From Aureimonas flava (GTDB lineage Bacteria > Pseudomonadota > Alphaproteobacteria > Rhizobiales > Rhizobiaceae), in NCBI RefSeq assembly GCF_003583935.1, contig NZ_QYRN01000006.1, positions 1 to 64,000 on the forward strand: DNA of 64,000 bases, read 5' to 3'. Positions 2,361 through 58,603 of the stretch are shown here, in pieces. The first letter of the stretch is position 1; each line of letters starts with the position of its first letter. A model generated the notes under the pieces. That model searched no databases. It worked only from the letters and a program-made list of their open reading frames with translations, and was not told where the DNA came from. The translations under genes and the position numbers were made by a program.

Positions 2361-2404
2361 GCGCGCCTCCTAGGCGCCGCGCGGGGCGCGTGAGATAGGA
2401 GGGA

Positions 2405-5291: not shown

Positions 5292-5363
5292 GGTCGCGGC
5301 GCTCGCGTTCGGGGCCGGCCGGGCCTATATCACCCGAGGCGGCGCACGCCGGAAAGAAGTCAG

Positions 5364-5552
5364 ATGTCGACGATCTTCACCATTCTCGCCGTGATCTTCA
5401 TGATCGCGGTCGCCGTGGTCCTCGTGATGGGCCTTGCCAACATGATGCGCGGCGGCCCCGGCAACACATCGCAGAAGCTGATGCGCGCGCGCGTCATGCT
5501 GCAGGCGATCGCGGTCGCCGTGATCGTGGGCGCGCTCTACTTCGCGCGCTGA
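5364..5552 (+). CDS. Twin transmembrane protein (HIG1-like)
   Basis: A 62-residue protein with two hydrophobic helices (about residues 3-24 and 43-60) joined by a short basic loop containing NMMRGGPGNTSQKLMRAR. Small HIG1-like twin-membrane proteins of this kind are common in Rhizobiales immediately before an ATP:cob(I)alamin adenosyltransferase, as here, 75 bp apart. HIG1 relatives assist cytochrome oxidase assembly; whether that applies here is unknown. A GGAAAGAAG sequence provides the ribosome binding site. Confidence 0.85.
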   Translation: MSTIFTILAVIFMIAVAVVLVMGLANMMRGGPGNTSQKLMRARVMLQAIAVAVIVGALYFAR

Positions 5553-5627
5553 ACCCGCGCACGGCCGGTTTCCCCTCCGGCGCCGCGTCCTAGATGGGTT
5601 CGGCACCGGGGACACGGAAGGCTTGCG

Positions 5628-6200
5628 ATGGTTCGGCTCACCAGGATCTACACGCGCACGGGTGACAAGGGCACCACGGCGCTCGGCAACGGCGAGCGGC
5701 GCGTGAAGAGCGATCTGCGCATCGAGGCCTACGGCACCGTGGACGAGACCAACTCGCTGATCGGCGTGGCGCGCCTTCACGCCTCGGCCGATCTCGACGC
5801 CGCCCTGTCGCGCATCCAGAACGACCTGTTCGATCTCGGCGCCGACCTGGCGACGCCCGAGGGCGACGAGCCGCCGCCCTACGAGCGGCTGGCGATCGCG
5901 GAGGCGCAGGTGGAGTGGCTGGAGCGCGAGATCGACCGGCTCAACGCAGACCTCGAGCCGCTGAACTCCTTCGTGCTGCCCGCCGGCACGCCCGCCTCGA
6001 GCCATCTCCACGTCGCGCGCGCCACCGCGCGCCGCGCCGAACGCCTGATGGTGGACCTTTCCCGGCGCGAGGGCGAGCGCGTGTCGGATCCCGCGCTCCG
6101 CTACGTGAACCGGCTTTCCGACTACCTGTTCGTCGCCGCGCGCCACGCCAACGACTCGGGACGCGGCGACGTGCTCTGGGTGCCCGGCGCGAACCGATAG
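5628..6200 (+). CDS. PduO-type ATP:cob(I)alamin adenosyltransferase
   Basis: Makes adenosylcobalamin from cob(I)alamin and ATP. The 190-residue protein has the PduO-type N-terminal ATP-binding motif TRTGDKGTTALGNGERR (about residues 9-25), followed by KSDLRIEAYGTVDETNS, and the C-terminal helix RYVNRLSDYLFVAARHAN with the catalytic Arg/Asp region. It is distinct from the P-loop CobA/CobO family. GGAAGG precedes the ATG. It follows the twin-TM protein and is separated from etfB by a 168-bp regulatory gap. Confidence 0.93.
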   Translation: MVRLTRIYTRTGDKGTTALGNGERRVKSDLRIEAYGTVDETNSLIGVARLHASADLDAALSRIQNDLFDLGADLATPEGDEPPPYERLAIAEAQVEWLEREIDRLNADLEPLNSFVLPAGTPASSHLHVARATARRAERLMVDLSRREGERVSDPALRYVNRLSDYLFVAARHANDSGRGDVLWVPGANR

Positions 6201-6212
6201 ACGCTGAAAACT

Positions 6213-6228
6213 TTGACGTAAACGTCAA
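6213..6228. promoter_or_regulatory. Perfect palindrome TTGACGT-AA-ACGTCAA, likely operator for etfBA
   Basis: Two perfect 7-bp arms separated by AA lie 141 bp before the etfB start. The shape and ACGT cores resemble operators of MerR-family regulators such as LiuR, which control branched-chain amino acid and acyl-CoA breakdown genes including etf genes in proteobacteria. The palindrome is seen; the regulator assignment is inference. Confidence 0.6.
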
Positions 6229-6279
6229 TGACGTGTAGCGTCCGTCGCGAAACGGTCGGAATGCGTCGCACCCGTTTGC

Positions 6280-6308
6280 TTGAACCCTCTCCGGCCCCTC
6301 CGTATGAA
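6280..6308 (+). promoter_or_regulatory. Candidate sigma-70-type promoter for etfBA
   Basis: TTGAAC at 6280-6285 and TATGAA at 6303-6308 are separated by 17 bp, leaving about 55-60 nt of leader to the etfB start. It is a reasonable match to the vegetative consensus in an otherwise GC-rich region. It lies about 50 bp downstream of the palindrome, so if the palindrome works as a MerR-type site a second start closer to it may exist. Confidence 0.4.
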
Positions 6309-6368
6309 AGGGGCGGTTGAAAAGTCCGGCCCGCGGCGCGACCCGTGGGCAAGCCAGGGAAGGCCCCG

Positions 6369-7115
6369 ATGAAGATTCTCGTCTGTGTGAAGCGTGTCGT
6401 CGACTACAACGTTAAGGTCCGCGTGAAGGCGGACGGGACGGGCGTCGAGCTCGCCAACGTGAAGATGTCGATGAACCCGTTCGACGAGATCGCGGTGGAG
6501 GAAGCCCTGCGCCTGAAGGAGCGGGGCGCGGCGACCGAGGTCGTGGCGGTCTCGGTCGGCGTGGCGCAGGCGCAGGAGACGATCCGGACCGCGCTCGCCA
6601 TGGGTGCCGACCGGGGCATCCTCGTGAAGGCCGAGGGGCGGCTGGAGCCGCTCGCCGTGGCCAAGCTCCTGAAGGGCGTGGTCGAGGCCGAGAAGCCCGA
6701 CCTCGTGATCCTCGGCAAGCAGGCGATCGACGACGACTGCAACCAGACCGGCCAGATGCTGGCGGGGCTGCTCGGCTGGGCGCAGGGCACCTTCGCCTCC
6801 AAGGTCGAGGTGGCGGACGGCGGCCTGTCGGTCACGCGCGAGGTGGACGGTGGGCTCCAGACGGTCGGCCTCGCGTTGCCGGCGATCGTCACCACCGACC
6901 TTCGCCTCAACGAGCCGCGCTATGCGTCGCTGCCCAACATCATGAAGGCGAAGAAGAAGCCGCTGGAGGAGCGGGACGCGTCGGAGTTCGGGGTGGACCT
7001 CGCGCCGCGCCTCGAGGTGGTGAAGGTCGCCGAGCCCAAGGGCCGTCAGGCGGGCGTCAAGGTCGGCTCGGTGGACGAGCTGGTCTCCGCGCTCAAGGGC
7101 GCTGGCCTGGTCTGA
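6369..7115 (+). CDS. etfB: Electron transfer flavoprotein beta subunit
   Basis: Beta subunit (248 residues) of the soluble ETF heterodimer that accepts electrons from acyl-CoA dehydrogenases and passes them to ETF-ubiquinone oxidoreductase. It opens with [19 protein letters not shown] and contains the AMP/adenine-binding region [19 protein letters not shown] and the signature [35 protein letters not shown] region (about residues 155-190). The frame extends eight codons upstream, but the ATG at 6369 matches all family members and has GGGAAGG in position. It is followed 82 bp later by etfA. Confidence 0.96.
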
Positions 7116-40041: not shown

Positions 40042-41727
40042 TCACGCGTCCGAGGGATCGAGAAACCCCGCTCGGCCGAGATAGTCGACCACGTCGCCGG
40101 CAAGCTCCTCGGCGGACCGGCGGTCGGTCTCCAGATGCAGTTCCGGCGCTTCCGGCGGCTCGTAGGGGCTGTCGATGCCGGTGAAGTTCGGGATGCGGCC
40201 CGCCCGCGCCTGCGCATAGAGTCCCTTCGGGTCTCGCGCCTCGGCGATGCCGAGCGGCGCATCCACGAACACCTCGACGAACTCTCCCTCCGCCAGAAGG
40301 TCCCGCGCCAGTCGCCGCTCGGCCCGGAAGGGCGAGATGAACGAGGCGAGCGTGATGAGGCCGGCATCCACCATGAGCTTGGCGGTCTCCGCCACGCGCC
40401 GGATGTTTTCGACGCGATCCTGCGCGGTGAAGCCGAGGTCGCGGTTGAGCCCGTGGCGGACGTTGTCGCCGTCCAGGAGATAGGTGTGGTGGCCGAGCGC
40501 GAAGAGCCGCTTCTCCACCAGGTTGGCGATCGTGGACTTGCCGGCGCCCGACAGGCCGGTGAACCAGAGAAGCGCCGGGCGCTGCGCCTTGGCGGCGGCG
40601 CGCGCGGCCTTGGTCACGTCCACGGCCTGGCGGTGGATGTTGGCCGCCCGACGAAGCGCGAAGTCGATCCGCCCCGCCGCCACCGTCCGGCCGGACGACG
40701 GATCGCAGAGCACGAAGGTGCCGAGCGCGCGGTTGCGGTCGAACGGCTCGAACGCCACCGGCGCGGCGAGCGACAGGTTGACTCGGCCGCCGTCGCCCGC
40801 CCCGAGCGTGTCGGCCGCGAGCGGCGCGGCGCTGGCAGTGTCGATGCGGTGCTTGATGCGCGTGACGCTGGCCGGGACCTCCCGCGCGCCGACCCGCAGG
40901 CGGTAGGCGCGCCCCGGTAGCAACGGCTCGTCGTCCAGCCAGAGGAGCCGGGCGGCGAACTGGTCGCAGGTTTCCGGGCGGTCGCCGGCCGCCGCCAGGA
41001 TATCGCCGGGGGCCGCGCCGACATCGCCGTCGAGGTGCAGCGCGATCGTCTCGCCAGCCACGGCCTCCATGCGCTCGACCCCTGCGACCGCAAGCGCGGC
41101 GACCCGCGCGCCGCGCCCCGAGCCGGCCGCCACCACGGCGTCGCCCGGCCGCACGAGGCCCGACACAACCGTACCCCGGAGGAGCGGACCGTCCGACGGC
41201 GCATCCACCGTCATGCGGAAGGGCTGGTCGGTGGCGCGAGTGAATGCGGCGGGCAGGCCGCGCAGGTGCTCGAGCAGCAGCGCGGGCACGCTCGCGCCGC
41301 CTTCGCCGCGCTCGGCGGGTAGCGGAACCGCGAGGAAAGACTGGACGTCCAGCGGCGACACGGCGCGGGCGACGTCTGCGGCAAGACCGTCGACGTGCCC
41401 GGCTTCCCCCGCCGCGTCCGCCTCGATCATCAGCACCAGATGGCGCAGGCCCATCAGGCGGGCCAGGGCCAGGTCCTGCACGAGGGGCCGGTCGATCTCC
41501 GCTCGGGAGCCCGCGAAGACTAGGGCGACGTCGCAGCGCGCGGCCGCCCGGACCATCTCGCGGTGGTCCTCGCCCCCGCGCAGGTCGATCGGCACGAAGC
41601 GTCGCGCGCCGTCTGCCGCGTCGGATGCCGCCACCAGCCGCGACAGGAGCGCCGATCCTCGCGCGCTCGCACGACCGCAGGCGAGGAGGCGGAGCGTCTC
41701 GGGTGCGTCGGGTTCGGGGCGGGACAT
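40042..41727 (-). CDS. cysC: CysN-CysC fusion with a degenerate GTPase domain (adenylylsulfate kinase active domain)
   Basis: A 561-residue protein. Residues 383-561 are a complete adenylylsulfate kinase: P-loop GLSGAGKST (391-399), [27 protein letters not shown], and the [12 protein letters not shown] loop, so it should make PAPS from APS. Residues 1-380 align with CysN, the GTPase subunit of sulfate adenylyltransferase, but the GTP motifs are gone: the P-loop is GRASARGSA (18-26), the DTPG switch is DLRGGEDH, and NKMD is replaced by MIEAD. Domains 2 and 3 of CysN are well kept. No cysD is adjacent. AAGGAG precedes the ATG. cysQ lies 31 bp upstream on the same strand. Confidence 0.85.
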
Positions 41728-41758: not shown

Positions 41759-42619
41759 TTACGAAGCGCCCGCCGGCCTGTCCATGGGAACCCGGTGCAG
41801 GAGGTCGGGGTCGCCGAAGGCCAGGAAGTGCGGATTGGCGAAGTCGGCCTCGTCGTCGCGCGCACGCTTGCCGTAGCGGAGCGGCCGGCCGTCGCAGGTC
41901 GTCACCCGCCCGCCGGCCGCGCGCAGCACCGCGTCTCCGGCCGCCGTGTCCCATTCCATCGTGCGCCCGAAGCGGGGGTAGAGGTCGGCTTCGCCCGCCG
42001 CCAGCAGGCAGAACTTCAGCGACGAGCCGCAGGCCGCGAAGCCGCCCACGGGAAGCTCGCGGAGGAAGCGCTCGGTTTCCGGCGAGCCGTGGCTGCGCGA
42101 TCCGACCACCGTCAGGGCGGGGGGCGCGCGGCGCACGGCGATCGCCCGGCGCGGCGCGTCCGCGTCGCGGCGCCAGGCACCCGACGGTCCTCCCGCGAAC
42201 AGCCGCCCGGTTGCCGGCGCCAGGACCACGCCGAGCACCGGCACGCCGTCCTCCACCAGAGCGATGTTGACGGTGAACTCGCCGTTGCCGCCGATGAACT
42301 CGCGCGTCCCGTCCAGCGGATCGACCAGGAAGAAGCGGGCGCAGGCCGCCGGTACGCGCCCCGCCGCAGCCTCTTCCTCCGCCACCACGGGGATCGCGGG
42401 CGCGATGCGGCGCAGCCCCGCCAGGATCACCGCCTCGGCCTCGCAGTCCGCCAGCGTCACCGGCGAGCCGTCCCCTTTCCGCGAGACGGCGACGTCCGGC
42501 CGGTAATGCGCCATCACGCGGGCACCGGCCTCGAGCGCCAGATCGGCGAGGGGATCGACCAGGGCGGCGAGGTCGAGCGGGGGCAACGCGGCGGAAGCGG
42601 GGGCAGGGGCGAGGGTCAT
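41759..42619 (-). CDS. cysQ: 3'(2'),5'-bisphosphate nucleotidase CysQ
   Basis: Inositol-monophosphatase-family enzyme, 286 residues, that hydrolyses PAP (and PAPS) left after sulfotransfer. The metal-binding motifs are [32 protein letters not shown] and the C-terminal [16 protein letters not shown], the last being the family signature. It lies upstream of cysNC in the same direction, with 31 bp between, so both likely form one PAPS-metabolism transcript. Confidence 0.92.
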
Positions 42620-42686: not shown

Positions 42687-42712
42687 AAAAGGGAGGGCCC
42701 AAAGACCCTCCC
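42687..42712 (-). terminator. Rho-independent terminator of exoY
   Basis: Read on the minus strand, GGGAGGG (42712-42706) pairs with CCCTCCC (42697-42691), with loop TCTTTGGG, followed directly by TTTTCGTTT. It lies 28 nt after the exoY stop and separates exoY from cysQ. Confidence 0.88.
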
Positions 42713-42740: not shown

Positions 42741-43433
42741 TCAGCAGCTTCCCTCCCGGTTCATGACGACCTTGATCGTCTTGAACAGGATCTGGACGTC
42801 GAGCCAGAGCGACCAGTGGCGGACGTAGTAGGTGTCGAATTTGACGCGAGACGCGTAGCTCGTGTTGGAGCGGCCGTTGACCTGCCACATGCCGGTGACG
42901 CCCGGACGGGTGCGCTTGTAGGCCTCGAAGCGGTGCGTGTAGCGATGCACCTCCTCGTCCACGATCGGGCGCGGTCCGATGAGGCTCATCTCGCCGCGAA
43001 GGACGTTGAAGAGCTGCGGCAGCTCGTCGAGGCTGGTCTCGCGCAGGAAGCGGCCGAGGCGGGTCACGCGCGGGTCGTTGCGCAGCTTCTGCGTCGCTTC
43101 CCACTCGGCGCTGGCGGCCGGGTCGCTCTGCAGCAGGCGCTGGAGCAGTTCGGCCGAGTTCGTCGCCATGGAGCGGAACTTGTAGCAGCGGAAGTGGCGC
43201 CCATCGAAGCCGACGCGCTTGTGGCCGAAGAAGACCGGACCCGGGTCGCTGATCTTCATGGCCGCGATGATGAGCAGCATCAGCGGGCTGAGCACGAGCA
43301 GCGCGCCGAGCGTCAGCGTGACGTCGACCGCCCGCTTCAGCGAGCCGCCGACCGGGCGGGAGAGGTCGACCTCGGCGGGTCGGGAGGCGACGTTGCTTTT
43401 GGTGCCGGCCGCCAAACTGGTGATCTTTGCCAT
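42741..43433 (-). CDS. exoY: ExoY-type undecaprenyl-phosphate sugar phosphotransferase
   Basis: Polyprenyl-glycosylphosphotransferase of 230 residues that would start exopolysaccharide repeat units, typically by transferring galactose-1-phosphate to undecaprenyl phosphate. There is one N-terminal membrane helix (about 35-58), then the catalytic core [48 protein letters not shown] and [11 protein letters not shown]. Length matches Sinorhizobium ExoY. The start at 43433 was chosen on family length. A strong terminator follows, and a 336-bp gap precedes it. Confidence 0.88.
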
Positions 43434-43769
43434 GGCAATCCCGTCGAGTTCTTTAAAGAACGGTAAGGATCCTATAGAGGAGTTGATGCATCCGGGCAAC
43501 GATTTGTTTCGCACTTGCACAGAAGGGGCCCGCCGCACCGGCGCATTTTCGCGGGGCGTAACCTCGCCTCGGCGAGATTTCCTTTACCCGCTCAGCGCGT
43601 TGCGATCCGTCGAATTGGCCGCAAATCGGGGCGGTAAATCGTTATGAACGGCTTTTAACGAAGCGTGAGGTGCGGATCGACGCTGACGCGCGGCGTGTGC
43701 CGATCGTCCGCCAGCGGACGGGTCCGATCATATTGCACTGCAAAAATCGGGGGCCGTTTCGCGCCCCGG
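43434..43769. promoter_or_regulatory. 336-bp intergenic region upstream of exoY
   Basis: No gene is visible in either strand. It is more AT-rich than its surroundings, especially near exoY (TTGTTTCGC and TCTTTAAAG-like stretches) and around 43630-43660. A short hairpin CTCGCC-TC-GGCGAG at 43563?-43576 spans 43563-43576 followed by TTTCCTTT on the plus strand. It probably carries the exoY promoter; no specific operator could be identified. Confidence 0.35.
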
Positions 43770-47964: not shown

Positions 47965-49494
47965 TCAGACGGCCTTTGCCTGAAGGCGCGAGGTTTGGCG
48001 AGAGGGATCGAGGCGTTCGGGCTCGTAGCCGAGGAGGGCGGCCGGCTCGGCATCGGCGAACACGCGCCCGACGCCGATCAGGATCGGCCGGTCGATGCCG
48101 ACGCGCGCGACGATCTCGCCGAGCCGGGCCAGCGTGCCGAGGGCGCGGATCTCGTCGGGCCGCGACAGCGCGGCGGCCACCGCCACCGGCGTCTCGGCCG
48201 GCAGGCCGTGGGCGACGAGCTGTGCGGCGATGCGCGGCGCCATGCGCCCGCCCATGTAGAAGATCGTGGTGGCGTTGTCGTCGGCAAGGGCGCGCCAGTC
48301 CATCTCGTCGGGCAGGTCCCCCCGCTGCGAATGGGCGGTGACGAAGCGAACCTGCTGGGCGCGGTCGCGATGCGTCAGCGACACGCCGAAGGCGCCGGCC
48401 ATGGCGGAGGCCGCCGTGATGCCCGGTACGATGGCGACGGGGATGCCGGCCGCGCGCAGCTCGGCGATCTCCTCGCCCGAGCGCCCGAACACCGAAACGT
48501 CGCCCGACTTCAGCCGCACCACGTGCTTTCCGGCCGTCGCGAACTGCGTCATCATCCGGTTGATGTCCTCCTGGCGGCAGCTCTCGCGCCCGCCCCGCTT
48601 GCCGACCAGCATGCGCTTGGCCTCGCGGCGGGCGAGTTCGAGGATGTCGTCCGACACGAGGTCGTCGAAGAGGATGACGTCGGCGGCCTGGAGCGCGCGC
48701 ACGGCCTTCAGCGTCAGGAGCTCGGCGTCGCCCGGTCCCGCGCCCACCAGCGTCACCCGGCCACCGGCCTGCGGGCGGCCGGCGAGGTCGCGCACGAAGG
48801 CGCGCGCCTCCAGCTCCGCCGCGTCGTCCGGGGCGCGCCGGGTGAAGGCGTCGTCCGAGAATCGCTCCCAGAAGGCGCGCCGGGCGGAGCCGGGGCCGAG
48901 CCGGGCCATGACCTCGCCGCGAACGCGCGCGGCCATGCGGGCCCAGCCGGCGAGCGTCGCGGGCAGCAGCGTCTCGATGCGCCGGCGGATCGCCTGTCCG
49001 AGGATGGGCGCCGCGCCGTCGGTGGAAATTCCGACCACCACGGGCGAGCGGTTGACGATGGTGCCGAAGCGGAACTGGCAGAAGGCGGGCTTGTCGATGA
49101 CGTTGACCGGCACGCCGGCCGCGCGCGCCGCGCAGAAGAAGGCCTGGGCCTCGGCGTCCGATTCGCAGTCCGCCACGGCGAGCGCGGCGCCGGCGAACAC
49201 GTCCGTTCCCCAGGGGCGGTCGTGATGCCGGATCGCGCCGTCCGCGAAGGGAAGGGCGAGAACGGTGCGCATCTCCTCGCCGATCTCGCCGGCCGGGCAG
49301 TAGAGGTCCACCAGGGCGCCGGAGGCAGCCAGGAGCTCGGCCTTCCAGGCCGCGCCGTCCGAGCCGCCGGCCATGGCGGCGCGCCGGTTCTTCAGGTCGA
49401 AGAACACGGGCAGCGTCGCGAGCTCGCCCATGCGCTGCGGGCGCGGGCTGCCCGGGTCGGCGTCACCTATGCTGGAGGACACGTCGTTCCGCAT
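47965..49494 (-). CDS. cysG: Siroheme synthase CysG
   Basis: Trifunctional enzyme of 509 residues: an N-terminal precorrin-2 dehydrogenase/ferrochelatase (residues about 20-235, with the AGGSDGAAWKAELL nucleotide loop and a NRSPVVVGISTDGAAP active-site segment) and a C-terminal uroporphyrinogen-III methyltransferase (about 250-500: VTLVGAGPGDAELLTLKA, VRLKSGDVSVFGR, VVPGITAASAMAGAFG). It makes the siroheme for NirB. The start overlaps the nasA end by 32 bp; a start at 49431 would remove the overlap. Confidence 0.92.
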   Translation of the reverse strand: MRNDVSSSIGDADPGSPRPQRMGELATLPVFFDLKNRRAAMAGGSDGAAWKAELLAASGALVDLYCPAGEIGEEMRTVLALPFADGAIRHHDRPWGTDVFAGAALAVADCESDAEAQAFFCAARAAGVPVNVIDKPAFCQFRFGTIVNRSPVVVGISTDGAAPILGQAIRRRIETLLPATLAGWARMAARVRGEVMARLGPGSARRAFWERFSDDAFTRRAPDDAAELEARAFVRDLAGRPQAGGRVTLVGAGPGDAELLTLKAVRALQAADVILFDDLVSDDILELARREAKRMLVGKRGGRESCRQEDINRMMTQFATAGKHVVRLKSGDVSVFGRSGEEIAELRAAGIPVAIVPGITAASAMAGAFGVSLTHRDRAQQVRFVTAHSQRGDLPDEMDWRALADDNATTIFYMGGRMAPRIAAQLVAHGLPAETPVAVAAALSRPDEIRALGTLARLGEIVARVGIDRPILIGVGRVFADAEPAALLGYEPERLDPSRQTSRLQAKAV

Positions 49495-52126
49495 CGATCA
49501 ATCCCTGGATCTCGGACCTGCAGGAGCCACAATTCGTGCCGGCCCGCAAGCTTTGGCCGACGGCGGCGACGCTGGCGCAGCCGCCCGCGGCAGCCCGCCT
49601 GATGTCGTTCGCGCCGACGCCGAAACAAGAGCAGACCAGCGCGCCGGGGTCGGGCCGGTCGGCGCCGGGCCGCCCGGCGAGGACGCGCGTGCGCGCGTCC
49701 GGCTCGAAGCGCGGGCCGTCGAGGAGCGAGACCGCGAAGGCGCGCGACACGGCGACGGGCTCGGGCGCGAGCCAGAGCGCGCCGACGAGCGCCCCCCTCC
49801 CGTCGAAGGCGGCGAGCCGCCGCTGGCCGCCACGGTCGGTGTAGTCCAGGACGTCGGCTGCCGGGTCGAGCCCGAGCAGGGCGTGCGGCTCGGGCGGGGC
49901 TTCGGTTCCGGCCAGCTCCAGCCGCCAGCCCCCCGGAGCGCGGACCTTCGCCCAGTACAGGCAGCCGCGGCCTTCCGGCTCGGCGCGCGACACGGCGAAG
50001 CCGTACCACGCGGCCTGCACCCGCCGCAGCGACGCCGGCGCGGCTTTCGAGGCGGGCTGGCCGGAGATCGGGTCCGTGTGGGCCGGAACCAGAGCGTTGA
50101 TGCGCGCCGCGCCCGAGAACTGGCCGGTCCAGTGCATCGGCGCGAACAGCGTGCCTTCGCGCACGCGCTCCGTCACCAGCGCGCGCAGGACGGCCCCGCC
50201 ATGGTCGGTGGACAGTTCCACGAGGTCGGCGTCGGCGATCCCCAGGCGTGCCGCGTCGATCGGGTGGATCTCGCAGAAGGGCTCGGCGAGATGGGCCGAG
50301 AGGCGCGCCGAGCGGCCGGTGCGCGTCATCGTGTGCCATTGGTCGCGGATGCGGCCGGTGTTGAGCACGAAGGGCCGCTCGGGCGTGAGGGCGGGCGCGG
50401 CGGCGGCACGCACGGCGTGCAGCCGCGCGCGACCGTCCGGGGTGTAGAAGCGGCCGTCCGCGAAGAAGCGCGTGGTCGGCGCGCCGCCGGCGGGCGCCGG
50501 CCAGCGCGTCGGCGCGAGCGCCGCATATCCCGCGTCGTCGAGGGTGGCGAGCGCCCCGATGTCGAAGTCGCGCGTCCCGTCGTTCTCGAAGGCCGACAGG
50601 GCGGCGTGCTCGCGGAAGATCGCGGCGGCGTCGGGATGGTCGAAAGCCTCCGCGAAGCCCATCCGCCGGGCGACCTCCCGGAGCTGCCACCAATCCGGCC
50701 GCGCCTCGCCGGGCAAGGGCAGGAAGGCACGCTGGCGCGAGATCCGGCGCTCGGAATTCGTCACCGTGCCGTCCTTCTCGCCCCAGGCGGCGGCGGGCAG
50801 CGCGACATGGGCGAAGGGCATCGTGTCGGTGTCGCGCACGATGTCGGACACGACCACGAAGGGGCAGCGGCGCAGCGCCTCGGCCGCCGCGTCCGCCTCG
50901 GGCAGCGAATCCACCGGGTTGGTGCCCATGATCCAGATCGCGCGCACTCGCCCGTCGGCGACGGCCCGGAACAGGTCCACCGCCTTGAGGCCGGGGCGCT
51001 GCGCGAGGGCGGGCGCCCGCCAGAAGCGGCGCACGAGGTCCCGGTGGGCCGGGTCGCCGATCTCCATGTGGGCGGCGAGCTGGTTGGCGAGCCCGCCGAC
51101 CTCGCGCCCGCCCATGGCGTTGGGCTGGCCGGTGACGGAGAACGGGCCGGCACCGGGGCGCCCGATGCGACCCGAGGCGAGGTGGCAGTTCAGGATGGCC
51201 GACACCTTGTCGGTGCCCGCCGCCGACTGGTTCACGCCCTGGCTGAACACGGTGACGGTCTTGCCGGTGCGGGCGTAGAGGTCGAGGAAGCGGGCGAGCG
51301 GTTCGCGCTCGAGCCCGGTGGCGTGGCGGAGCCGCTCGATGTCGGCGAAGGGGCGGGCGGCCAGGAGTGCCTCGTCCAGCCCCTGCGTGTGCGCCTCGGC
51401 ATAGGCGCGGTCGATGGTCCCCGCCGCCTCCATCGCGGCCAGGGCGCCGAGGAACAGCGCGGTGTCCGCGTCGGCGCGGATCGGCAGGTGCAGGTCCGCC
51501 TCGCGCGCGCTCGCCGTTTCGCGCGGGTCGATCACCACGAGGCGCATGGCGGGCCGCCGGGCGCGCGCCGCCTGGACGCGCTGGAACAGCACCGGATGAC
51601 ACCAGGCGAGGTTGGAGCCGACCAGCACCAGGAGGTCGGCCTCCTCCAGGTCCTCGTAGGTTCCGGGCACCGTGTCCGAGCCGAGGCCGCGCTTGTGGCC
51701 CGCCACGGTCGAGGCCATGCACAGGCGCGAGTTGGTGTCGATGTTGGCCGTGCCGAGGAAGCCCTTCACCAGCTTGTTGGCGAGGTAGTAGTCCTCGGTC
51801 AGGAACTGGCCGGAGGCGTACAGCGCCACCGAGTCCGGGCCGTGCGCGGCGACGGTCTCGGCGAGCCGCGCGGCGACGTGGTCGAGCGCCGCGTCCCAGG
51901 TGGCGCGCCGGCCGCCGATCTCGGGATGGAGAAGGCGGCGGTCGGGGATCAGCGTCTCTGCGAGCGCCGATCCCTTGGAGCACAGGCGCCCGAGATTGGC
52001 GGGATGCTCCGGGTCTCCCTCGATCCGCACCGTCCCGTCGCCGCGCGCGGTGGCGAGGACGCCGCAGCCGACGCCGCAATAGGGGCAGGTGGTGCGGGTC
52101 GCGCCCGCCTCGGCCAGCGTGTCCAT
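49463..52126 (-). CDS. nasA: Assimilatory nitrate reductase large subunit NasA
   Basis: Cytoplasmic molybdopterin enzyme of 887 residues reducing nitrate to nitrite. N-terminal [4Fe-4S] ligands are Cys14, Cys17, Cys21 and Cys49. The molybdopterin domains carry VGSNLAWCHPVLF, TNPVDSLPEAD and MTRTGRSARLSAH. The C-terminal BFD-like [2Fe-2S] domain has Cys832, Cys834, Cys866 and Cys869, as in the long NasA of proteobacteria. No separate NasB flavoprotein is present, so the electron donor is open. It starts one base after the cynS stop. Confidence 0.94.
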   Translation of the reverse strand: MDTLAEAGATRTTCPYCGVGCGVLATARGDGTVRIEGDPEHPANLGRLCSKGSALAETLIPDRRLLHPEIGGRRATWDAALDHVAARLAETVAAHGPDSVALYASGQFLTEDYYLANKLVKGFLGTANIDTNSRLCMASTVAGHKRGLGSDTVPGTYEDLEEADLLVLVGSNLAWCHPVLFQRVQAARARRPAMRLVVIDPRETASAREADLHLPIRADADTALFLGALAAMEAAGTIDRAYAEAHTQGLDEALLAARPFADIERLRHATGLEREPLARFLDLYARTGKTVTVFSQGVNQSAAGTDKVSAILNCHLASGRIGRPGAGPFSVTGQPNAMGGREVGGLANQLAAHMEIGDPAHRDLVRRFWRAPALAQRPGLKAVDLFRAVADGRVRAIWIMGTNPVDSLPEADAAAEALRRCPFVVVSDIVRDTDTMPFAHVALPAAAWGEKDGTVTNSERRISRQRAFLPLPGEARPDWWQLREVARRMGFAEAFDHPDAAAIFREHAALSAFENDGTRDFDIGALATLDDAGYAALAPTRWPAPAGGAPTTRFFADGRFYTPDGRARLHAVRAAAAPALTPERPFVLNTGRIRDQWHTMTRTGRSARLSAHLAEPFCEIHPIDAARLGIADADLVELSTDHGGAVLRALVTERVREGTLFAPMHWTGQFSGAARINALVPAHTDPISGQPASKAAPASLRRVQAAWYGFAVSRAEPEGRGCLYWAKVRAPGGWRLELAGTEAPPEPHALLGLDPAADVLDYTDRGGQRRLAAFDGRGALVGALWLAPEPVAVSRAFAVSLLDGPRFEPDARTRVLAGRPGADRPDPGALVCSCFGVGANDIRRAAAGGCASVAAVGQSLRAGTNCGSCRSEIQGLIDAERRVLQHR

Positions 52127-52127
52127 C

Positions 52128-52571
52128 TCACCACGCGTTGTAGGCGAGGTACTTGCCGCTCATGCTCACCTCGATCCGGTCGCCCTTGGGGCTCGCCACC
52201 CGCTCGACCCGCATGTCGAAGTCGATCGCGCTCATGATCCCGTTGCCGCACTTCTCCTGGATCAGCTCCTTGAGCGTGTCGCCGTAGACGCCGACGATCT
52301 CGTGGAAGCGGTAGACGCAGGGATCGGTCGGCACGTCGCGGTTCCAGGTCTTGGTCGGATACTCGGCCAGCACCACGCCCGCCTCCTGCGGCAGGCCGAG
52401 CTGGGTCGCCAGGAGGTCGGCCTTGTCGCGCGGCAGGGCGTTCATGCCGAGGCAGGCCGAGGTCACGAAGACCTCGCTCATGCCGATGCCGTCGGCGATC
52501 GAGGCCCAGGACAGGCCGGCCTGGCGCTTGCGCTCGTAGACGAGCTCGGTGACGTCCTTCTTCGACAGCAT
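52128..52571 (-). CDS. cynS: Cyanate hydratase (cyanase)
   Basis: Converts cyanate and bicarbonate to ammonium and carbon dioxide. The 147-residue protein has the N-terminal helical DNA-binding-like domain and the C-terminal active-site domain YRFHEIVGVYGDTLKELIQE and GNGIMSAIDF. The catalytic residues Arg88, Glu91 and Ser114 match Arg96, Glu99 and Ser122 of the E. coli enzyme with the same spacing. AGGAGA precedes the ATG. It lies between nirD (9 bp) and nasA (1 bp), inside the nitrate operon. Confidence 0.96.
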   Translation of the reverse strand: MLSKKDVTELVYERKRQAGLSWASIADGIGMSEVFVTSACLGMNALPRDKADLLATQLGLPQEAGVVLAEYPTKTWNRDVPTDPCVYRFHEIVGVYGDTLKELIQEKCGNGIMSAIDFDMRVERVASPKGDRIEVSMSGKYLAYNAW

Positions 52572-52580
52572 TCCGTTCTC

Positions 52581-52931
52581 CTATTCCGCCGCCTCGGCGA
52601 AGGCCTCGCGCCCCACCAGAAGCTCCAGCGATCCGTCGGCGCCCACACGCACGGGGAAGGTCCGCACCCGGCCCTCGTCCGGCCCCTGGACGAGGCCGGT
52701 GTCCAGCGCGATCACCTGGTTGTGGAGCGGGCAGGTGACCGAGCCGCCATGGACGATGCCCTGGCTGAGCGGGCCGCCCCGATGCGGGCAGCGGTCCTCG
52801 GTGGCGAAGACCCTGTCGTCCATCGTGCGGAACACGGCGATGCGCCCGAGCGGGGAGACGACGCAGCGCGCGCCGCGGCGGGGGATGTCGGCCAGGCGGC
52901 CGATCGCCGCCCATTCGGGTCCGGTGCTCAT
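52581..52931 (-). CDS. nirD: Nitrite reductase small subunit NirD
   Basis: Rieske-type small subunit of the NADH-dependent assimilatory nitrite reductase, 116 residues. The full [2Fe-2S] ligand set is kept: CPHRGG (Cys48, His50) and CPLHN (Cys67, His70). E. coli NirD lacks these ligands, so the subunit here may carry a cluster. Its start overlaps the nirB stop as ATGA, indicating coupled translation. Confidence 0.93.
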   Translation of the reverse strand: MSTGPEWAAIGRLADIPRRGARCVVSPLGRIAVFRTMDDRVFATEDRCPHRGGPLSQGIVHGGSVTCPLHNQVIALDTGLVQGPDEGRVRTFPVRVGADGSLELLVGREAFAEAAE

Positions 52932-55384
52932 TCTGCGGCCTCGCGGAAGCGGGAGAGATCGGCCAGCGGCTTGAACTCGTGGGCTGCGACGCCCCGCGAG
53001 GCGCGCTCGGCCCATGGGTCGACCTGCGAGAAGCGCTGCGAGAAGACGAAACGCTCGAAATAGGCTTGGCGCTTCTCGGGATCCTCCACGACGGCGGCCC
53101 GGATCGAATCCATGCCGACGCGTTTCAGCCACTTGTAGATGCGCTCCAGATAATGACCCTGCTCGCGGTAGAGCTGGGTCAGGGCGGCGATCGTCACCAC
53201 CGCCTCGTCCTCGGTGTCGACGTGGCAGAGCACCTGCGTGCCGTGGATGTCGAGACCGGCGGCGCCCGCGAAATGGATGTCGTAGCCCGAATCGACGCAG
53301 ATCACGCCGATGTCCTTGCAGGTCGCCTCGGCGCAGTTTCGCGGGCAGCCGGACACGGCCATCTTGAGCTTGGCCGGGGTCCAGGATCCCCACATGAACT
53401 TCTCCAGGCGGATGCCGAGGCCGGTGGAGTCCTGCGTCCCGAAGCGGCACCAGTCGGTGCCGACGCACGTCTTCACCGTGCGCAGGCCCTTGGCATAGGC
53501 CGCGCCCGAGACCATGCCGGCGGCGTTGAGGTCGGCCCACACGGCCGGCAGGTCCTCCTTGCGCACGCCGAGCATGTCGATGCGCTGGCCGCCGGTGCAC
53601 TTCACGGCGGGGATCTGGAACTTGTCCACCACGTCGGCGATGGCGCGCAGCTCGGCCGACGAGGTCATGCCGCCCCACATGCGGGGCACCACCGAATAGG
53701 TGCCGTCCTTCTGGATGTTGGCGTGGACGCGCTCGTTGATGAAGCGGCTCTGCTTGTCGTCCTGGTACTCGCCCGGCCAGTCGGCGAGGAGATAGTAGTT
53801 CAGGGCCGGGCGGCACTTGGCGCAGCCGCAGGAGGTCTTCCACTCCAGCTCCTGCATCACCGCCGGGATGCTCTTGAGCGCCTTGGCGCGGATCAGGCGG
53901 CGGACGTCGCCGTGGCCGAACTCGGTGCAGCCGCACATCGGCTTCACCGCCTTCGGGTTGAAGGCGTCGCCGAGCGTCAGGCCCATGAGCTGCTCCACCA
54001 GCCCGGTGCACGAGCCGCAGGAGGCCGAGGCCTTGGTGTGGGCGCGCACGTCGTCCAGCGTGGAGAGGCCCTTCTCCGCGATGGCGCTCGTGATCTTGCC
54101 CTTGCACACGCCGTTGCAGCCACAGATCTCGGCGTCATCGCCCAAGGCTGCAACGGCCGCCATAGGGTCCAGCGGCGACCCTCCGCCGTAGCTCTGGCCG
54201 AAGATCAGCGTGTCGCGCATCTCGGCGATGTCGGTGCCCTTCTTCATGAGGTCCGCGAACCATCCGCCGTCCGCCGTCTCGCCGTAGAGAACGGCTCCGA
54301 GGATGCGGTTGTCCTGGAGCACCAGGCGCTTGTAGACGCCGGCCGAGGCGTCGCGCAGCACGATCTCCTCGCGGTCCGGCGCGTCGGCGAAGTCGCCGAC
54401 CGAATAGAGGTTGATGCCAGTGACCTTGAGCTTGGTCGGCGTGTCGGCGTGGCGGAAGCCTTCCGCCGGCTGGCCGGCGAGGCGGCGCGCGGCGACCTCG
54501 GCCATCTGGTAGAGCGGGGCGACGAGGCCGTAGACCCGCCCGTCGAGCTCGACGCATTCGCCGAGCGCCGAGACGGCCGGGTCGGAGGTCAGGAGCTGGT
54601 CGTTCACGTGGACGCCGCGCCCGCAGGCGAGGCCCGCCTCCCTCGCGAGGCCGAGCGACGGACGGATGCCGACCGCCATGACCACGAGGCTCGCCGGGAT
54701 GACGCGCCCGTCCTTCAGCCGGACGCCCTCGACCTTGCCGGTGCCGAGCACTTCCTCCGTGTTGGCGTTGCAGATCACCTCGATGCCGCGCCCTTCCAGG
54801 GCACGCTGGAGCAGGAAGCCGGCGGCGGGGTCGAGCTGGCGCTCCATCAGCGTCGGCATGAGATGGAGGACGGTGACCTCCAGACCTTGGGCACGCAGGC
54901 CGGCCGCGGCCTCGAGGCCGAGAAGGCCGCCGCCGATCACCACGGCCTTGGCGCGCGACTGCGCGGCGAGGATCATCGCGTCTACGTCGTCGAGGTCGCG
55001 ATAGGCGAGGACGCCCGGCAGGTCGTGGCCGGGCACCGGCGGCACGAAGGGCGTGGAGCCCGTGGCGATCACCAGATGGTCGTAGGGCGCCGTAACGCCC
55101 CGGTCCGAGGTCACGGTCCGGGCCTCGCGGTCGATCGCGACGACGCGCTGGCCCTTGTGCAGCGTGACGCCGTGCCGTTCGTACCAGGCGTCGCCGTGGA
55201 TCACGATGTCGTCGAAGCTCTTCTCGCCGGAGAGGACGGGCGACAGCATGATGCGGTCGTAGTTCACGCGCGGCTCGGCGTTGAAGATCGTCACCTCGAA
55301 GGCGCCGGGCGCGAGTTCGAAGAGGTGTTCCAGCATCCGGCCGGGGGCCATGCCGTTGCCGACGACGACGAGTTTGGAGGTCAT
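52928..55384 (-). CDS. nirB: Nitrite reductase large subunit NirB
   Basis: NADH-dependent siroheme nitrite reductase of 818 residues producing ammonium in the cytoplasm. The N-terminal FAD/NAD-binding module starts VVVGNGMAPGRML. Next are two cysteine-rich domains, CGCNGVCKG with CGSC, and CGCTEFGH with CGCAKC. The sulfite/nitrite reductase domain ends with CVGTDWCRFG and SGCPRNCAEA, whose cysteines bind the [4Fe-4S]-siroheme. The ATG at 55384 is used; a start three codons upstream is possible. Confidence 0.95.
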   Translation of the reverse strand: MTSKLVVVGNGMAPGRMLEHLFELAPGAFEVTIFNAEPRVNYDRIMLSPVLSGEKSFDDIVIHGDAWYERHGVTLHKGQRVVAIDREARTVTSDRGVTAPYDHLVIATGSTPFVPPVPGHDLPGVLAYRDLDDVDAMILAAQSRAKAVVIGGGLLGLEAAAGLRAQGLEVTVLHLMPTLMERQLDPAAGFLLQRALEGRGIEVICNANTEEVLGTGKVEGVRLKDGRVIPASLVVMAVGIRPSLGLAREAGLACGRGVHVNDQLLTSDPAVSALGECVELDGRVYGLVAPLYQMAEVAARRLAGQPAEGFRHADTPTKLKVTGINLYSVGDFADAPDREEIVLRDASAGVYKRLVLQDNRILGAVLYGETADGGWFADLMKKGTDIAEMRDTLIFGQSYGGGSPLDPMAAVAALGDDAEICGCNGVCKGKITSAIAEKGLSTLDDVRAHTKASASCGSCTGLVEQLMGLTLGDAFNPKAVKPMCGCTEFGHGDVRRLIRAKALKSIPAVMQELEWKTSCGCAKCRPALNYYLLADWPGEYQDDKQSRFINERVHANIQKDGTYSVVPRMWGGMTSSAELRAIADVVDKFQIPAVKCTGGQRIDMLGVRKEDLPAVWADLNAAGMVSGAAYAKGLRTVKTCVGTDWCRFGTQDSTGLGIRLEKFMWGSWTPAKLKMAVSGCPRNCAEATCKDIGVICVDSGYDIHFAGAAGLDIHGTQVLCHVDTEDEAVVTIAALTQLYREQGHYLERIYKWLKRVGMDSIRAAVVEDPEKRQAYFERFVFSQRFSQVDPWAERASRGVAAHEFKPLADLSRFREAAE

Positions 55385-55471
55385 GGGTCTCATCCCGAAA
55401 CGAAGGGTCGAAGGGCGAGGGCGGGCTTCCGGCGCGGCGTCGGTGGCGCGCGGGACGGCCCGACGCCCGTG

Positions 55472-56272
55472 TCAGGCCGCTTCCACGAAGCGGTTGCGTT
55501 CGTAGAGGAACTTCAGCACCGCCTGGCGGCACTTCAGGTAGGTCGGGTCGGCCGCCAGCTTGAGCCGGTCGCGCGGGCGGGCGAGCGGCACGGCGAGGAT
55601 CTCGCCGATCCGGGCCGAGGGGCCGTTGGTCAGCATCACGATCCGGTCCGACAGGAGCACCGCCTCGTCCACGTCGTGGGTGATCATCATCACCGTGGTG
55701 CCGAGGTCGGCCTGGATCTGCATCACCTGGTCCTGGAGATGGGCGCGCGTCAGGGCGTCCAGCGCGCCGAAGGGCTCGTCGAGGAGCAGGATCTTGGGCT
55801 CCATGGCGAGGGCGCGGGCGATGCCGACGCGCTGCTTCATGCCGCCCGAGATCTCGTTCGGGCGCTTGTCCCGGGCATGGCCCATGTGGACGAGCTCGAG
55901 GTTGCGCACCACCCATTCGCGGCGCTCGGCGGCCGACTTCGTCCGTCCGAAGACCTTGTCGACGGCCAGCGCGACGTTCTCGTAGACCGTGAGCCAGGGC
56001 AGGAGCGAATGGTTCTGGAACACCACGCCCCGGTCCGGGCCCGGCTGGTCCACCACCTTGTCCTCCAGGAGAACCACGCCGGCGCTGGCCCGGGTGAGGC
56101 CCGCGACGATGTTGAGGAGGGTGGACTTGCCGCAGCCCGAATGGCCGATGATCGAGATGTACTCGCCCTTGTCTACCGTCAGGTCGATGCCCTTGAGGAC
56201 GTTGGTCGCGGTGGTGCCCCGGCGGAAGGTCATGTCGACGCCTTCGATCGACAGGAACGGCTTGGTGGTCAT
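55472..56272 (-). CDS. nrtD: Nitrate ABC transporter ATP-binding protein NrtD
   Basis: ATPase of the NrtABD uptake system, 266 residues. Walker A GHSGCGKST, signature ISGGMKQRVGIARAL, Walker B ILLLDEPFGALD and the switch ITHDVDEAVLL are all present, with the VFQNHSLLPW Q-loop typical of nitrate/sulfonate/taurine-type ATPases. There is no C-terminal NrtA-like sensor as in cyanobacterial NrtC. It follows nrtB by 29 bp and precedes nirB by 87 bp. Confidence 0.92.
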   Translation of the reverse strand: MTTKPFLSIEGVDMTFRRGTTATNVLKGIDLTVDKGEYISIIGHSGCGKSTLLNIVAGLTRASAGVVLLEDKVVDQPGPDRGVVFQNHSLLPWLTVYENVALAVDKVFGRTKSAAERREWVVRNLELVHMGHARDKRPNEISGGMKQRVGIARALAMEPKILLLDEPFGALDALTRAHLQDQVMQIQADLGTTVMMITHDVDEAVLLSDRIVMLTNGPSARIGEILAVPLARPRDRLKLAADPTYLKCRQAVLKFLYERNRFVEAA

Positions 56273-56301
56273 GGCGGGTTCGCTCCGGTGTCGGGAAGGG
56301 A

Positions 56302-57219
56302 TCAGGCGGCCGCAGTGCCGCGAGTGACGAGGCGGCCGACGAAGGCCACGATCCGGTCGAGCACGAAGCCGACGAGGCCGACATAGGCGAGGGCGAGGAT
56401 GATGTCGGAGATCAGGGACGAGTTCCAAGCGTCCCAGATGAAGAAGCCGATGCCCACGCCGCCGATCAGCATCTCGGCCGCCACGATGGCGAGCCAGGAG
56501 AGGCCGACGCCGATGCGAAGCCCGGTGAAGATGTAGGGGGCGGCGGCCGGCAGCATGATCTTGGTGAAGAATTCCAGGCCGTTCAGGCGCAGCACGCTCG
56601 CCACGTTGCGGTAGTCCGACGGGATGTTGCGGATGCCGACCGCGGTGTTGATGATGATCGGCCAGATCGCGGTGATGAAGATCACGAAGATCGCGGCGGG
56701 CTCGCCGTTCTGGAAGGCGGCGAGCGACAGCGGCAGCCAGGCGAGCGGGGGCACGGTGCGCAGCACCTGGAAGATCGGGTCGAGACCGCGCATGGCGAGC
56801 GTCGACTGGCCGACCAGGACGCCGAGCGAGATGCCGGCGACCACCGCCAGCGCATAGCCGATCGCCACGCGCTGGAGGCTCGCCCAGATCTGCCAGCCGA
56901 GGCCGACGTCGTTGCCGCCGGCGACGTAGAACGGGTGGGCGATCAGCTCCCAGGTGTCGGACACGACCTGGGTCGGCGGCGGCAGCGCCGAGCCGGCATG
57001 CGAGCACAGGACCTCCCACAGCGTCAGCAGCGCCGCCAGCGCGACCAGCGGCGGCACGATGTTGGCCGCGGCTTCGCGGGCCATGGCGGCGCCGCGCGCG
57101 GCGCGCGGCGCGCGCGTCCGGGGCAGGGCCACCACGTTCGCTGCGGCGGCCGTGGTGCCAAGGGCTGCGGTGCCGGAGGTGGGGCCGGAGACGGGAAGTT
57201 TCGCGACGGTCTGGGACAT
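56302..57219 (-). CDS. nrtB: Nitrate ABC transporter permease NrtB
   Basis: Permease of 305 residues with a long basic/Ala-rich N-terminus and about six helices. The EAA-type loop reads ASVLRLNGLEFFTKIMLPAAAPYIFTGLRIG, and the segments LRTVPPLAWLPLSLAAF and IGFFIWDAWNSS are characteristic of the nitrate/cyanate/taurine permease subfamily. It is separated from nrtA by 73 bp that hold a strong hairpin. Confidence 0.93.
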   Translation of the reverse strand: MSQTVAKLPVSGPTSGTAALGTTAAAANVVALPRTRAPRAARGAAMAREAAANIVPPLVALAALLTLWEVLCSHAGSALPPPTQVVSDTWELIAHPFYVAGGNDVGLGWQIWASLQRVAIGYALAVVAGISLGVLVGQSTLAMRGLDPIFQVLRTVPPLAWLPLSLAAFQNGEPAAIFVIFITAIWPIIINTAVGIRNIPSDYRNVASVLRLNGLEFFTKIMLPAAAPYIFTGLRIGVGLSWLAIVAAEMLIGGVGIGFFIWDAWNSSLISDIILALAYVGLVGFVLDRIVAFVGRLVTRGTAAA

Positions 57220-57261
57220 CGGGACGGGACCTTGCCGGAGGAGGCGGAAGGGAGGGGCGGC

Positions 57262-57287
57262 ACGGGGCCGGCGCGTGCCGGCCCCGT
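57262..57287 (-). terminator. Strong hairpin between nrtA and nrtB
   Basis: ACGGGGCCGGC and GCCGGCCCCGT form a perfect 11-bp stem with a 4-nt loop just 5 nt after the nrtA stop. No T-tract follows, so it is better explained as a 3'-end stabiliser or partial attenuator giving more NrtA than NrtB/D. Confidence 0.6.
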
Positions 57288-57292
57288 TCGCG

Positions 57293-58603
57293 TCAGCTCA
57301 CGGTCTTGATCGACTGGCTTTCGAGATAGGCGTCGGGATTGGCGGGATCGAAGGTCTTGCCGTCGAAGAAGGTCTCGATGCCGCGCGAGGTGGAGGCGGG
57401 GATGTCGGCCGCCGCCACGCCGAGATCCTTGGCGGCCTCGCGCCATAGGTCCTCGCGGTTGACCTTGTCGACCAGCGCGGTCCGGTCGAGGTCCATCGGC
57501 AGGTAGCCCCAGCGCTGGTCCTCGGTCAGGAACCACAGGTCGTGGCTCTTGTAGGGATAGGAGGCGTTGTCGGCCCAGTAGCGCATTTGGAAGGGGGAGT
57601 TTTCGACCACCTTGCCGTTGCCGTAGTCGAAGCGGCCCTTCATGCGGTCCACGACGTCCTTGAAGGGGGCGTTGATCCACTGGCGCTTGGCGCAGATCTC
57701 GGCCATCTCCTCCTTGTTGGCCGTGTCCTCGCACCACATCTGGGCCTCCTGCACCGCCATCAGCAGCGCCTTGGCGGCGCGCGGATTGGCGTCGACATAG
57801 TCGGCGCGCAGCGCGAAAGCCTTTTCCGGGTGGTTCATCCAGAGCTCGCTGGTGGTGATCGCCGTGTAGCCGATCTCCTGGTTCTTGAGTTGCTCGTTCC
57901 AGGGCTCGCAGACGCAGAAGCAGTCCATCGTGCCGACCTTCATGTTGGCCACCATCTGGGCGGGCGGCACGACGATGGTCGAGATGTCCTGGTTGGGGTG
58001 GATGCCGCCGGCGGCCAGCCAGTAGCGGATCCAGAGGTCGTGCGTGCCGCCGGGGAAGGTCATGGCGGCCTTCACCTCCTTGCCGCTCGCCTTCTTGGCC
58101 GCCAGCGCCGTCTTGAAGGGCGCGGTGTCGAGCGAAAGCTTGAGGTCGGCATATTCGGAGCCGACCGAGATGCACTGGCCGCCGAGGTTGAGGCGCGCCA
58201 GGATGTACATCGGCGTCGGCTGGTTGTTCTGCGTCATCGCGCCCGACGAGATCAGGTAGGGCATGGGCGTCAGGATATGGCCGCCGTCGATGCCCGAGCC
58301 CGCCGAGCCGAGCACGATGTTGTCGCGCGTCGTGCCCCAGGACGACTGCTTGGTGACCTCGACGTCGGTCATGCCGTACTTGTCGAAGAGGCCCTTCTCC
58401 TTGGCGACGAAGAGCGGCGCGGCGTCGGTCAGGGCGATGAAGCCGAGGACGGCCTTGGTCGTCTCCGGTCCCGCCCCTTGCGCGAAGGCGCCGCCGGGAA
58501 AGCTCGCGCCGATCGCCGAGAACAGCGCGGCGGTGCCGGCGGACGCGGCCGTGCCGGCCAGGAAGCGGCGACGGTTCAGGGCGGGGACGTCGAAAACGGT
58601 CAT
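57293..58603 (-). CDS. nrtA: Nitrate-binding ABC transporter substrate-binding protein NrtA
   Basis: Periplasmic nitrate-binding protein of 436 residues. A twin-arginine type signal (NRRRFLAGTAASAGTAALF) opens it, consistent with Tat export as in other NrtA proteins. The domain has the SSWGTTRDNIVLGSAGSGIDGGHIL segment, DCFCVCEPWNEQL and the SPFQMRYWADN stretch, which are characteristic of the CmpA/NrtA family. The ATG at 58603 has GAGGACC upstream. It heads the structural part of the operon after a roughly 395-nt leader. Confidence 0.93.
   Translation of the reverse strand: MTVFDVPALNRRRFLAGTAASAGTAALFSAIGASFPGGAFAQGAGPETTKAVLGFIALTDAAPLFVAKEKGLFDKYGMTDVEVTKQSSWGTTRDNIVLGSAGSGIDGGHILTPMPYLISSGAMTQNNQPTPMYILARLNLGGQCISVGSEYADLKLSLDTAPFKTALAAKKASGKEVKAAMTFPGGTHDLWIRYWLAAGGIHPNQDISTIVVPPAQMVANMKVGTMDCFCVCEPWNEQLKNQEIGYTAITTSELWMNHPEKAFALRADYVDANPRAAKALLMAVQEAQMWCEDTANKEEMAEICAKRQWINAPFKDVVDRMKGRFDYGNGKVVENSPFQMRYWADNASYPYKSHDLWFLTEDQRWGYLPMDLDRTALVDKVNREDLWREAAKDLGVAAADIPASTSRGIETFFDGKTFDPANPDAYLESQSIKTVS

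Follow-up and report, generated by a model that had tools for sequence, protein, structure and literature searches.

In the sulfate-activating CysD-CysNC complex, the CysNC/NodQ protein (NCBIfam model NF004035) joins a CysN GTPase, made of a G domain followed by domains 2 and 3 (D2 and D3), through a linker to a CysC kinase of adenosine 5'-phosphosulfate (APS). The kinase is also encountered as a stand-alone enzyme (TIGR00455). We describe here a gene of Aureimonas flava that departs from both patterns. It occupies positions 40042..41727 on the minus strand of the first 64,000 nucleotides of contig NZ_QYRN01000006.1 (assembly GCF_003583935.1), the whole stretch analyzed and called the window below. 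Its 561-residue product (P0001, with the stop codon counted in the span) is an eroded CysN-CysC fusion, recognized by domain and model matches, and we consider it likely to be an APS kinase to which a dead GTPase is still attached, this half having become dead weight after the loss of CysD.

The fusion resembles CysNC/NodQ in domain order, D3, linker and CysC, and NF004035 is its best NCBIfam model. The score of 493.1 bits is nevertheless under the cut-off of 715, and the P-loop, switch I, G3 and G4 motifs as well as the cysD partner gene are missing. With stand-alone CysC the fusion shares the kinase motifs, a score above cut-off and the predicted reaction, but it bears about 380 additional residues of CysN remnant. 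The fungal ATP sulfurylase offers a parallel in that a non-catalytic domain is retained in a fused sulfate-activating enzyme (consulted parts of PMC2275785); there it was the kinase that turned regulatory, whereas in the fusion the GTPase has decayed and the kinase is kept. Septin pseudoGTPases likewise illustrate how one family can lose GTPase activity repeatedly and independently (abstract of PMC10731463); septins keep an assembly role, while in the present case the domain itself appears to have been lost stepwise. A literature search, which most subscription papers fell outside, found no published description of an eroded CysN-CysC.

The GTPase motifs are designated here by their generally used names. 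None of the P-loop, switch I, DxPGH and NKxD motifs of CysNC/NodQ was found in the fusion, PF00009 (GTP_EFTU) had no match in the protein at E<=1, and a genome search with the same model had none at the locus. Profile-profile alignment (hhalign) placed residues 1-168 (41224..41727, minus strand like every part of the gene) on the G domains of intact CysN with a probability of 98% and an E-value of about 1e-14. In this region, called pseudo-G below, GRASARGSA (41650..41676) falls on the P-loop GSVDDGKST, the DLRGGED stretch (DLRGGEDH, 41563..41586) on the G3 sequence DTPGHEQ, and MIEAD (IEAD, 41416..41427) on the VNKxD of G4, the query being the profile of loci L001 and L015. The lysine and the second glycine of the P-loop are gone. 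Only 30 residues separate the places of the P-loop and G3, versus 80 in the intact copy L055, and the 50 absent residues correspond to the switch I region. A preliminary description made from the letters of the window had proposed that the CysN half had lost its nucleotide-binding motifs and was about 50 residues short; both proposals are borne out, and the missing stretch can now be located. It had also envisaged that a better alignment or a corrected frameshift might restore the motifs. They are not in place in the alignment, and pseudo-G aligns in six other species all of which likewise lack them; the loss is therefore not a sequencing frameshift. The CysN half would no longer bind or hydrolyze GTP.

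The remainder of the protein is progressively better preserved. D2 (40981..41223) is recognizable but weak, with 18.8 bits against a Pfam cut-off of 30.3 (GTP_EFTU_D2). D3 (40657..40980) reaches 82.6 bits against a cut-off of 27 (GTP-eEF1A_C) and covers positions 1-108 of the 108 in our own D3 profile. The earlier statement that the beta-barrel domains were retained thus stands for D3 and only partly for D2. The linker between D3 and the kinase (40579..40656) is near invariant among eroded Aureimonas copies. The CysC domain (40066..40578) was correctly described as intact: it obtains 219.6 bits with the Pfam APS kinase model and 246.9 with TIGR00455 (cut-off 138.7), it aligns over its whole length with solved APS kinases, and all five kinase motifs tested are kept, namely the P-loop GLSGAGKST at 40531-40557, LDGDN, FISPF, RDPKGLY and the FTG of FTGIDS. 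The reading frame opens with an ATG at the 41727 end, preceded 9 nt upstream by AGGAG. As judged from these sequence matches, D3, linker and CysC establish the common descent of the fusion with CysNC, and the protein is apparently a working APS kinase. The CysC domain of Mycobacterium tuberculosis, taken by itself, forms an active dimer (as stated in the consulted part of PMC4373884), so the kinase need not have a CysN half. Since the fusion fails the CysNC model and passes the APS kinase models, routine annotation would probably label it a plain APS kinase and hide the CysN remnant.

Selective constraint follows the same gradient. We calculated omega, the ratio of nonsynonymous to synonymous change, by the Nei-Gojobori method for seven pairs of eroded Aureimonas copies and four pairs of intact copies; the synonymous sites behind these values are partly saturated. 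Among eroded pairs omega amounts to 0.46-0.85 for pseudo-G, 0.21-0.65 for D2, 0.21-0.45 for D3, 0-0.12 for the linker and 0.08-0.15 for CysC. The intact pairs give 0.11-0.30 for the G domain, 0.05-0.21 for D2, 0.03-0.31 for D3, 0.10-0.18 for CysC and 0.11-0.58 for the linker; across G, D2, D3 and CysC, three of them stay within 0.03-0.14, and the pair furthest apart spans 0.18-0.31. Pseudo-G is the least constrained part in all seven eroded pairs and varies in length. By this measure, constraint on CysC is normal and constraint on pseudo-G and D2 is relaxed.

Aureimonas belongs to the Hyphomicrobiales, and an eroded copy was found in 11 of the 21 genomes of this genus (G000, G001, G002, G004, G007, G008, G009, G010, G015, G018 and G020). 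The copy of G010 begins at D2 and has no G domain. In nine of the 11, exoY and cysQ adjoin the gene, in surroundings of two kinds: those of the window, or those with UDP-glucose dehydrogenase and epimerase genes nearby (G001, G010). In G008 and G020 the neighbors are pdxJ, a nucleotidyl transferase gene and ABC transporter genes. Four genomes (G001, G004, G009, G015) also possess an intact CysNC with an adjacent cysD and with sulfotransferase genes within 10 kb. There is no support for deriving the eroded Aureimonas copies directly from the intact CysNC found in this genus, as the two groups do not join in a tree whose backbone is unresolved. Motif loss of this sort could in principle denote a pseudogene or an assembly error, and two loci of the wider survey illustrate the danger: L188 resembles a frameshifted intact CysNC, and L190 is interrupted by a run of N and adjoins cysD and cysN. 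For the Aureimonas gene we find such an explanation barely credible, given that the seven aligned copies have uninterrupted reading frames and an omega of 0.08-0.15 in CysC, and that exoY and cysQ adjoin the gene in nine species.

Erosion is not restricted to Aureimonas. The order was surveyed in 397 genomes, with matches partly listed, and eroded copies lying beside an intact CysNC were probably missed outside Aureimonas. Ninety-five genomes without a strong intact match were chosen by eye; 80 were searched, and 67 of these 80 had an APS kinase match. Forty regions were fetched from the survey and their domains scored with profiles built from 91 intact proteins; eight more regions with short APS kinases were fetched afterwards. 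At least 22 genomes of the order outside Aureimonas harbor an eroded copy. Among the 33 eroded copies, the P-loop pattern persists in three, an NKxD-type G4 in four and the switch I pattern in one; a G remnant is detected by profile in 20, starting at the earliest at profile position 53, and D2 in 19. In a tree of D3 and CysC (77 rows), nine changes between intact and eroded states are needed (bootstrap range 7-10), at least six of them on strong branches, and a single clade of eroded copies is rejected by the AU test (p 0.000482). Because the regain of a G domain is implausible, we read these changes as separate erosions, which would have occurred several times.

Several candidates were discarded or set apart. 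The loci L188 and L190 were excluded from the eroded set for the defects mentioned above. Azospirillum plasmid genes annotated cysC are not eroded: H1, H2 and H7 all adjoin cysD, the first two also showing full scores for the G domain. Contig ends truncate L182, L187 and L207, which were left out of the counts, and L217, which has SKMD for NKMD, was kept as intact. A separate observation concerns L249 (G379:C22, 7808 bp), which has the same truncated cysC at either end of the contig, facing opposite ways; the assembly probably broke at a repeat there.

The degrees of erosion allow an order of decay to be proposed. L029, L183 and L185 keep the P-loop and NKMD and have lost switch I; in some copies nothing but the latter portion of the G domain is left; L184 is scarcely more than D3 and CysC. 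Finally, the lone CysC L248 (G072) groups with L184 and L200 in a quick tree with long branches elsewhere (SH-aLRT 98 for the three, 86 with L184) and is likely an end point of erosion. Simple trimming from the N- to the C-terminus is not a full account, since no room is left for D2 between the G remnant and D3 in six copies (L181, L193, L194, L196, L197 and L198).

The partner genes offer a possible cause. The preliminary description had noted that no cysD is adjacent to the fusion, and indeed none lies in the window, the PF01507 matches of this genome being confined to contigs 19 and 11. The same holds throughout: cysD adjoins none of the 31 testable eroded copies (the upstream sequences of L036 and L189 are too short for the test). 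It stands upstream on the same strand in all 67 testable intact named loci, seven others starting at a contig end, and likewise in 21 of 21 further intact loci and in 13 of 13 in L201-L219, 101 testable loci in all, some genomes being perhaps in two of these sets. A different ATP sulfurylase is found in 31 of the 33 eroded genomes. Outside Aureimonas this is Sat (PF01747), present in 20 of 22 eroded genomes and in one of 17 genomes with intact CysNC (13 checked for motifs, four judged intact from the survey; G042 was shifted from control to eroded for this comparison), and no other CysN was found in the six eroded non-Aureimonas genomes checked. In the 11 eroded Aureimonas genomes Sat is absent and a separate CysN is matched in each, with intact motifs in all five fetched. 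In A. flava itself, the genome search suggested by the preliminary description located cysD and a second, intact cysN on contig 19, adjoining cysH. The Rhodobacterales, unlike other alphaproteobacteria, have been described as devoid of CysN/CysD and equipped with the other ATP sulfurylase (in the portion of PMC2275785 consulted). In intact CysN, residues specific to EF-Tu and CysN near switch I and II adjoin the contact with CysD (PMC5770160, consulted in part), so the loss of switch I fits the loss of CysD.

Two genomes of the survey carry a further type of enzyme, a fusion of a PUA domain, ATP sulfurylase and APS kinase: L216 (G072) at 5074-6765 and L215 (G083) at 2158-4035. G083 holds this fusion, its sole Sat match, together with an eroded CysNC (L203).

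The retained barrel had been suggested to dock a separate sulfate adenylyltransferase. In a refined form, the remnant, chiefly D3, would dock the kinase on the cell's ATP sulfurylase, CysDN in this genome and Sat in others, and permit a direct handover of scarce APS. All 33 eroded copies have a complete or almost complete D3, a count that is not independent, as D3 presence partly served to select the set; its omega is below that of D2 in six of seven eroded pairs (above in one) and below that of pseudo-G in all seven. The regions lost are, on the other hand, those adjoining the CysD contact of intact CysN (same passages of PMC5770160), D2 and pseudo-G are relaxed, and D2 is squeezed out in the six copies listed above. 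Most eroded non-Aureimonas genomes use Sat, which is not homologous to CysDN (PMC6286981, in the part consulted), and the lone CysC L248, without D3, falls inside an eroded clade. The docking of the barrel as first suggested is not upheld, and we regard the refined version as improbable; D3 alone might dock. One may also speculate, with slightly more indulgence though still as an unlikely proposition, that D3 and the linker form an adaptor taking APS from whichever ATP sulfurylase is present, the swapping of partners having made of them a general docking or gating domain.

We therefore return to the dead GTPase carried by a kinase, whose history might be as follows. The CysN half would descend from a working GTPase of the CysD-CysNC complex. 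The gene would have lost its cysD partner, with APS supplied by another ATP sulfurylase, the CysDN of contig 19 here and Sat in most relatives, and selection on the GTPase would then have ceased. Most lines probably lost switch I to an early deletion, after which the P-loop, G3 and G4 decayed; D2 would next have been weakened or deleted, and D3 and the linker would have lasted longest because both adjoin the kinase. Selection would still act on the kinase, whose product 3'-phosphoadenosine 5'-phosphosulfate (PAPS) would feed an accessory sulfation pathway while CysQ clears the by-product 3'-phosphoadenosine 5'-phosphate (PAP). If so, these genomes provide a natural series for the dismantling of an energy-coupled multidomain enzyme, from the intact protein through forms without switch I, without the motifs and without D2 or the G domain, to the lone kinase. 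The loss of the CysD partner is suggested as the trigger, and the series makes the contribution of CysN to CysC a testable question.

A number of observations weigh against this account, beyond the partial saturation of synonymous sites and the selection on D3 already mentioned. The decay order is not uniform: L209, which has no cysD, keeps the switch I motif and has lost the first P-loop glycine, with DTPDH and EKID at the other motifs. The eroded set was altered after the first tree on sequence grounds (L188 and L190 out, L209 in). Sat is absent from G126 and G160, where a separate CysDN is deduced only from survey E-values, and G038 holds Sat plus an intact CysNC with cysD. With correction for phylogeny, the link with Sat comes down to three independent strong-branch pairs, about two for and none against (median p 0.5), which are too few for significance. 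Lastly, omega is below one in pseudo-G, which means that some constraint remains or that the need for an open frame upstream of CysC enforces it; the latter may explain the values. The same ratio could speak for a pseudo-domain turned regulatory, for instance a nucleotide or PAPS sensor, as in the fused APS kinase domain of the fungal ATP sulfurylase. Such a role appears very unlikely for a region that is the least constrained in every eroded pair, varies in length and is absent in G010.

The destination of the PAPS can be approached from the rest of the genome. The preliminary description had favored sulfated polysaccharide or lipid over cysteine synthesis, and the evidence agrees that PAPS here probably serves sulfation: the fusion is the only APS kinase match in this genome, CysH looks like an APS reductase, cysQ is adjacent, and the CysC part of the fusion is unmatched in nine of the 21 Aureimonas genomes. 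This CysH contains two pairs of cysteines. It scores above the cut-off of the APS reductase model (244.5 versus 235.3) and below that of the PAPS reductase equivalog (146.9 versus 254.2); the general phosphoadenylyl-sulfate reductase model PRK02090 accepts it too (258.1 versus 154), a further point against us. Rhizobial CysH favors APS (PMC6192434, in the part consulted). The genome contains a third PAPS_reduct protein, L005 (G000:C11:349261-349812, 43 bits), outside the cysteine cluster. Judging from the nine unmatched genomes and from G012, whose APS kinase (L170/L045) belongs to a different lineage and carries no CysN remnant, the need for PAPS does not seem to extend to the whole genus. 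A cell-surface polysaccharide would be the likeliest target, as rhizobia spend PAPS on sulfated lipopolysaccharide (same part of PMC6192434) and as in G052 a PF13469 sulfotransferase (L178, 10425-11303) is encoded at a distance of about 2.6 kb from the eroded cysNC.

The search for sulfotransferases proposed earlier had a negative outcome that likewise counts against sulfation: no match to PF13469, PF00685 or PF03567 was found in this genome, although PF03567 says little, having matched none of the 21 Aureimonas genomes and no control. PF13469 matches five of the 21 genomes and PF00685 four, A. flava being in neither set, and among the seven genomes with an eroded copy only, PF13469 matches one (G008). 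This could be taken to mean that the substrate of the kinase is not APS, or that the process it serves is not sulfation. Considering the five APS kinase motifs, the full alignment with solved APS kinases, the adjacent cysQ and the sulfotransferase of G052, we hold this to be highly improbable.

The immediate neighborhood was accurately reported in the preliminary description. The cysQ gene (3'(2'),5'-bisphosphate nucleotidase, 41759..42619, minus strand) is situated 31 nt upstream of the fusion and obtains 280.5 bits with TIGR01331 (cut-off 228.8). It is preceded by an exoY-like gene for an undecaprenyl-phosphate sugar transferase (42741..43538, minus strand; PF02397 230 bits, TIGR03025 just above cut-off). 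A terminator-like hairpin (42691..42712, minus strand) separates exoY from cysQ; the shuffled region has a mean of 1.9 such sites and it may be due to chance. Given this hairpin and the 31 nt gap, cysQ may constitute a separate unit together with the fusion. Downstream of the fusion, past trmD, the window encodes a polysaccharide export protein (PF02563, 37104-38480, minus strand). Further along, positions 47965-58603 contain a nitrate assimilation-like cluster and a siroheme synthase, as judged from reading frames only.
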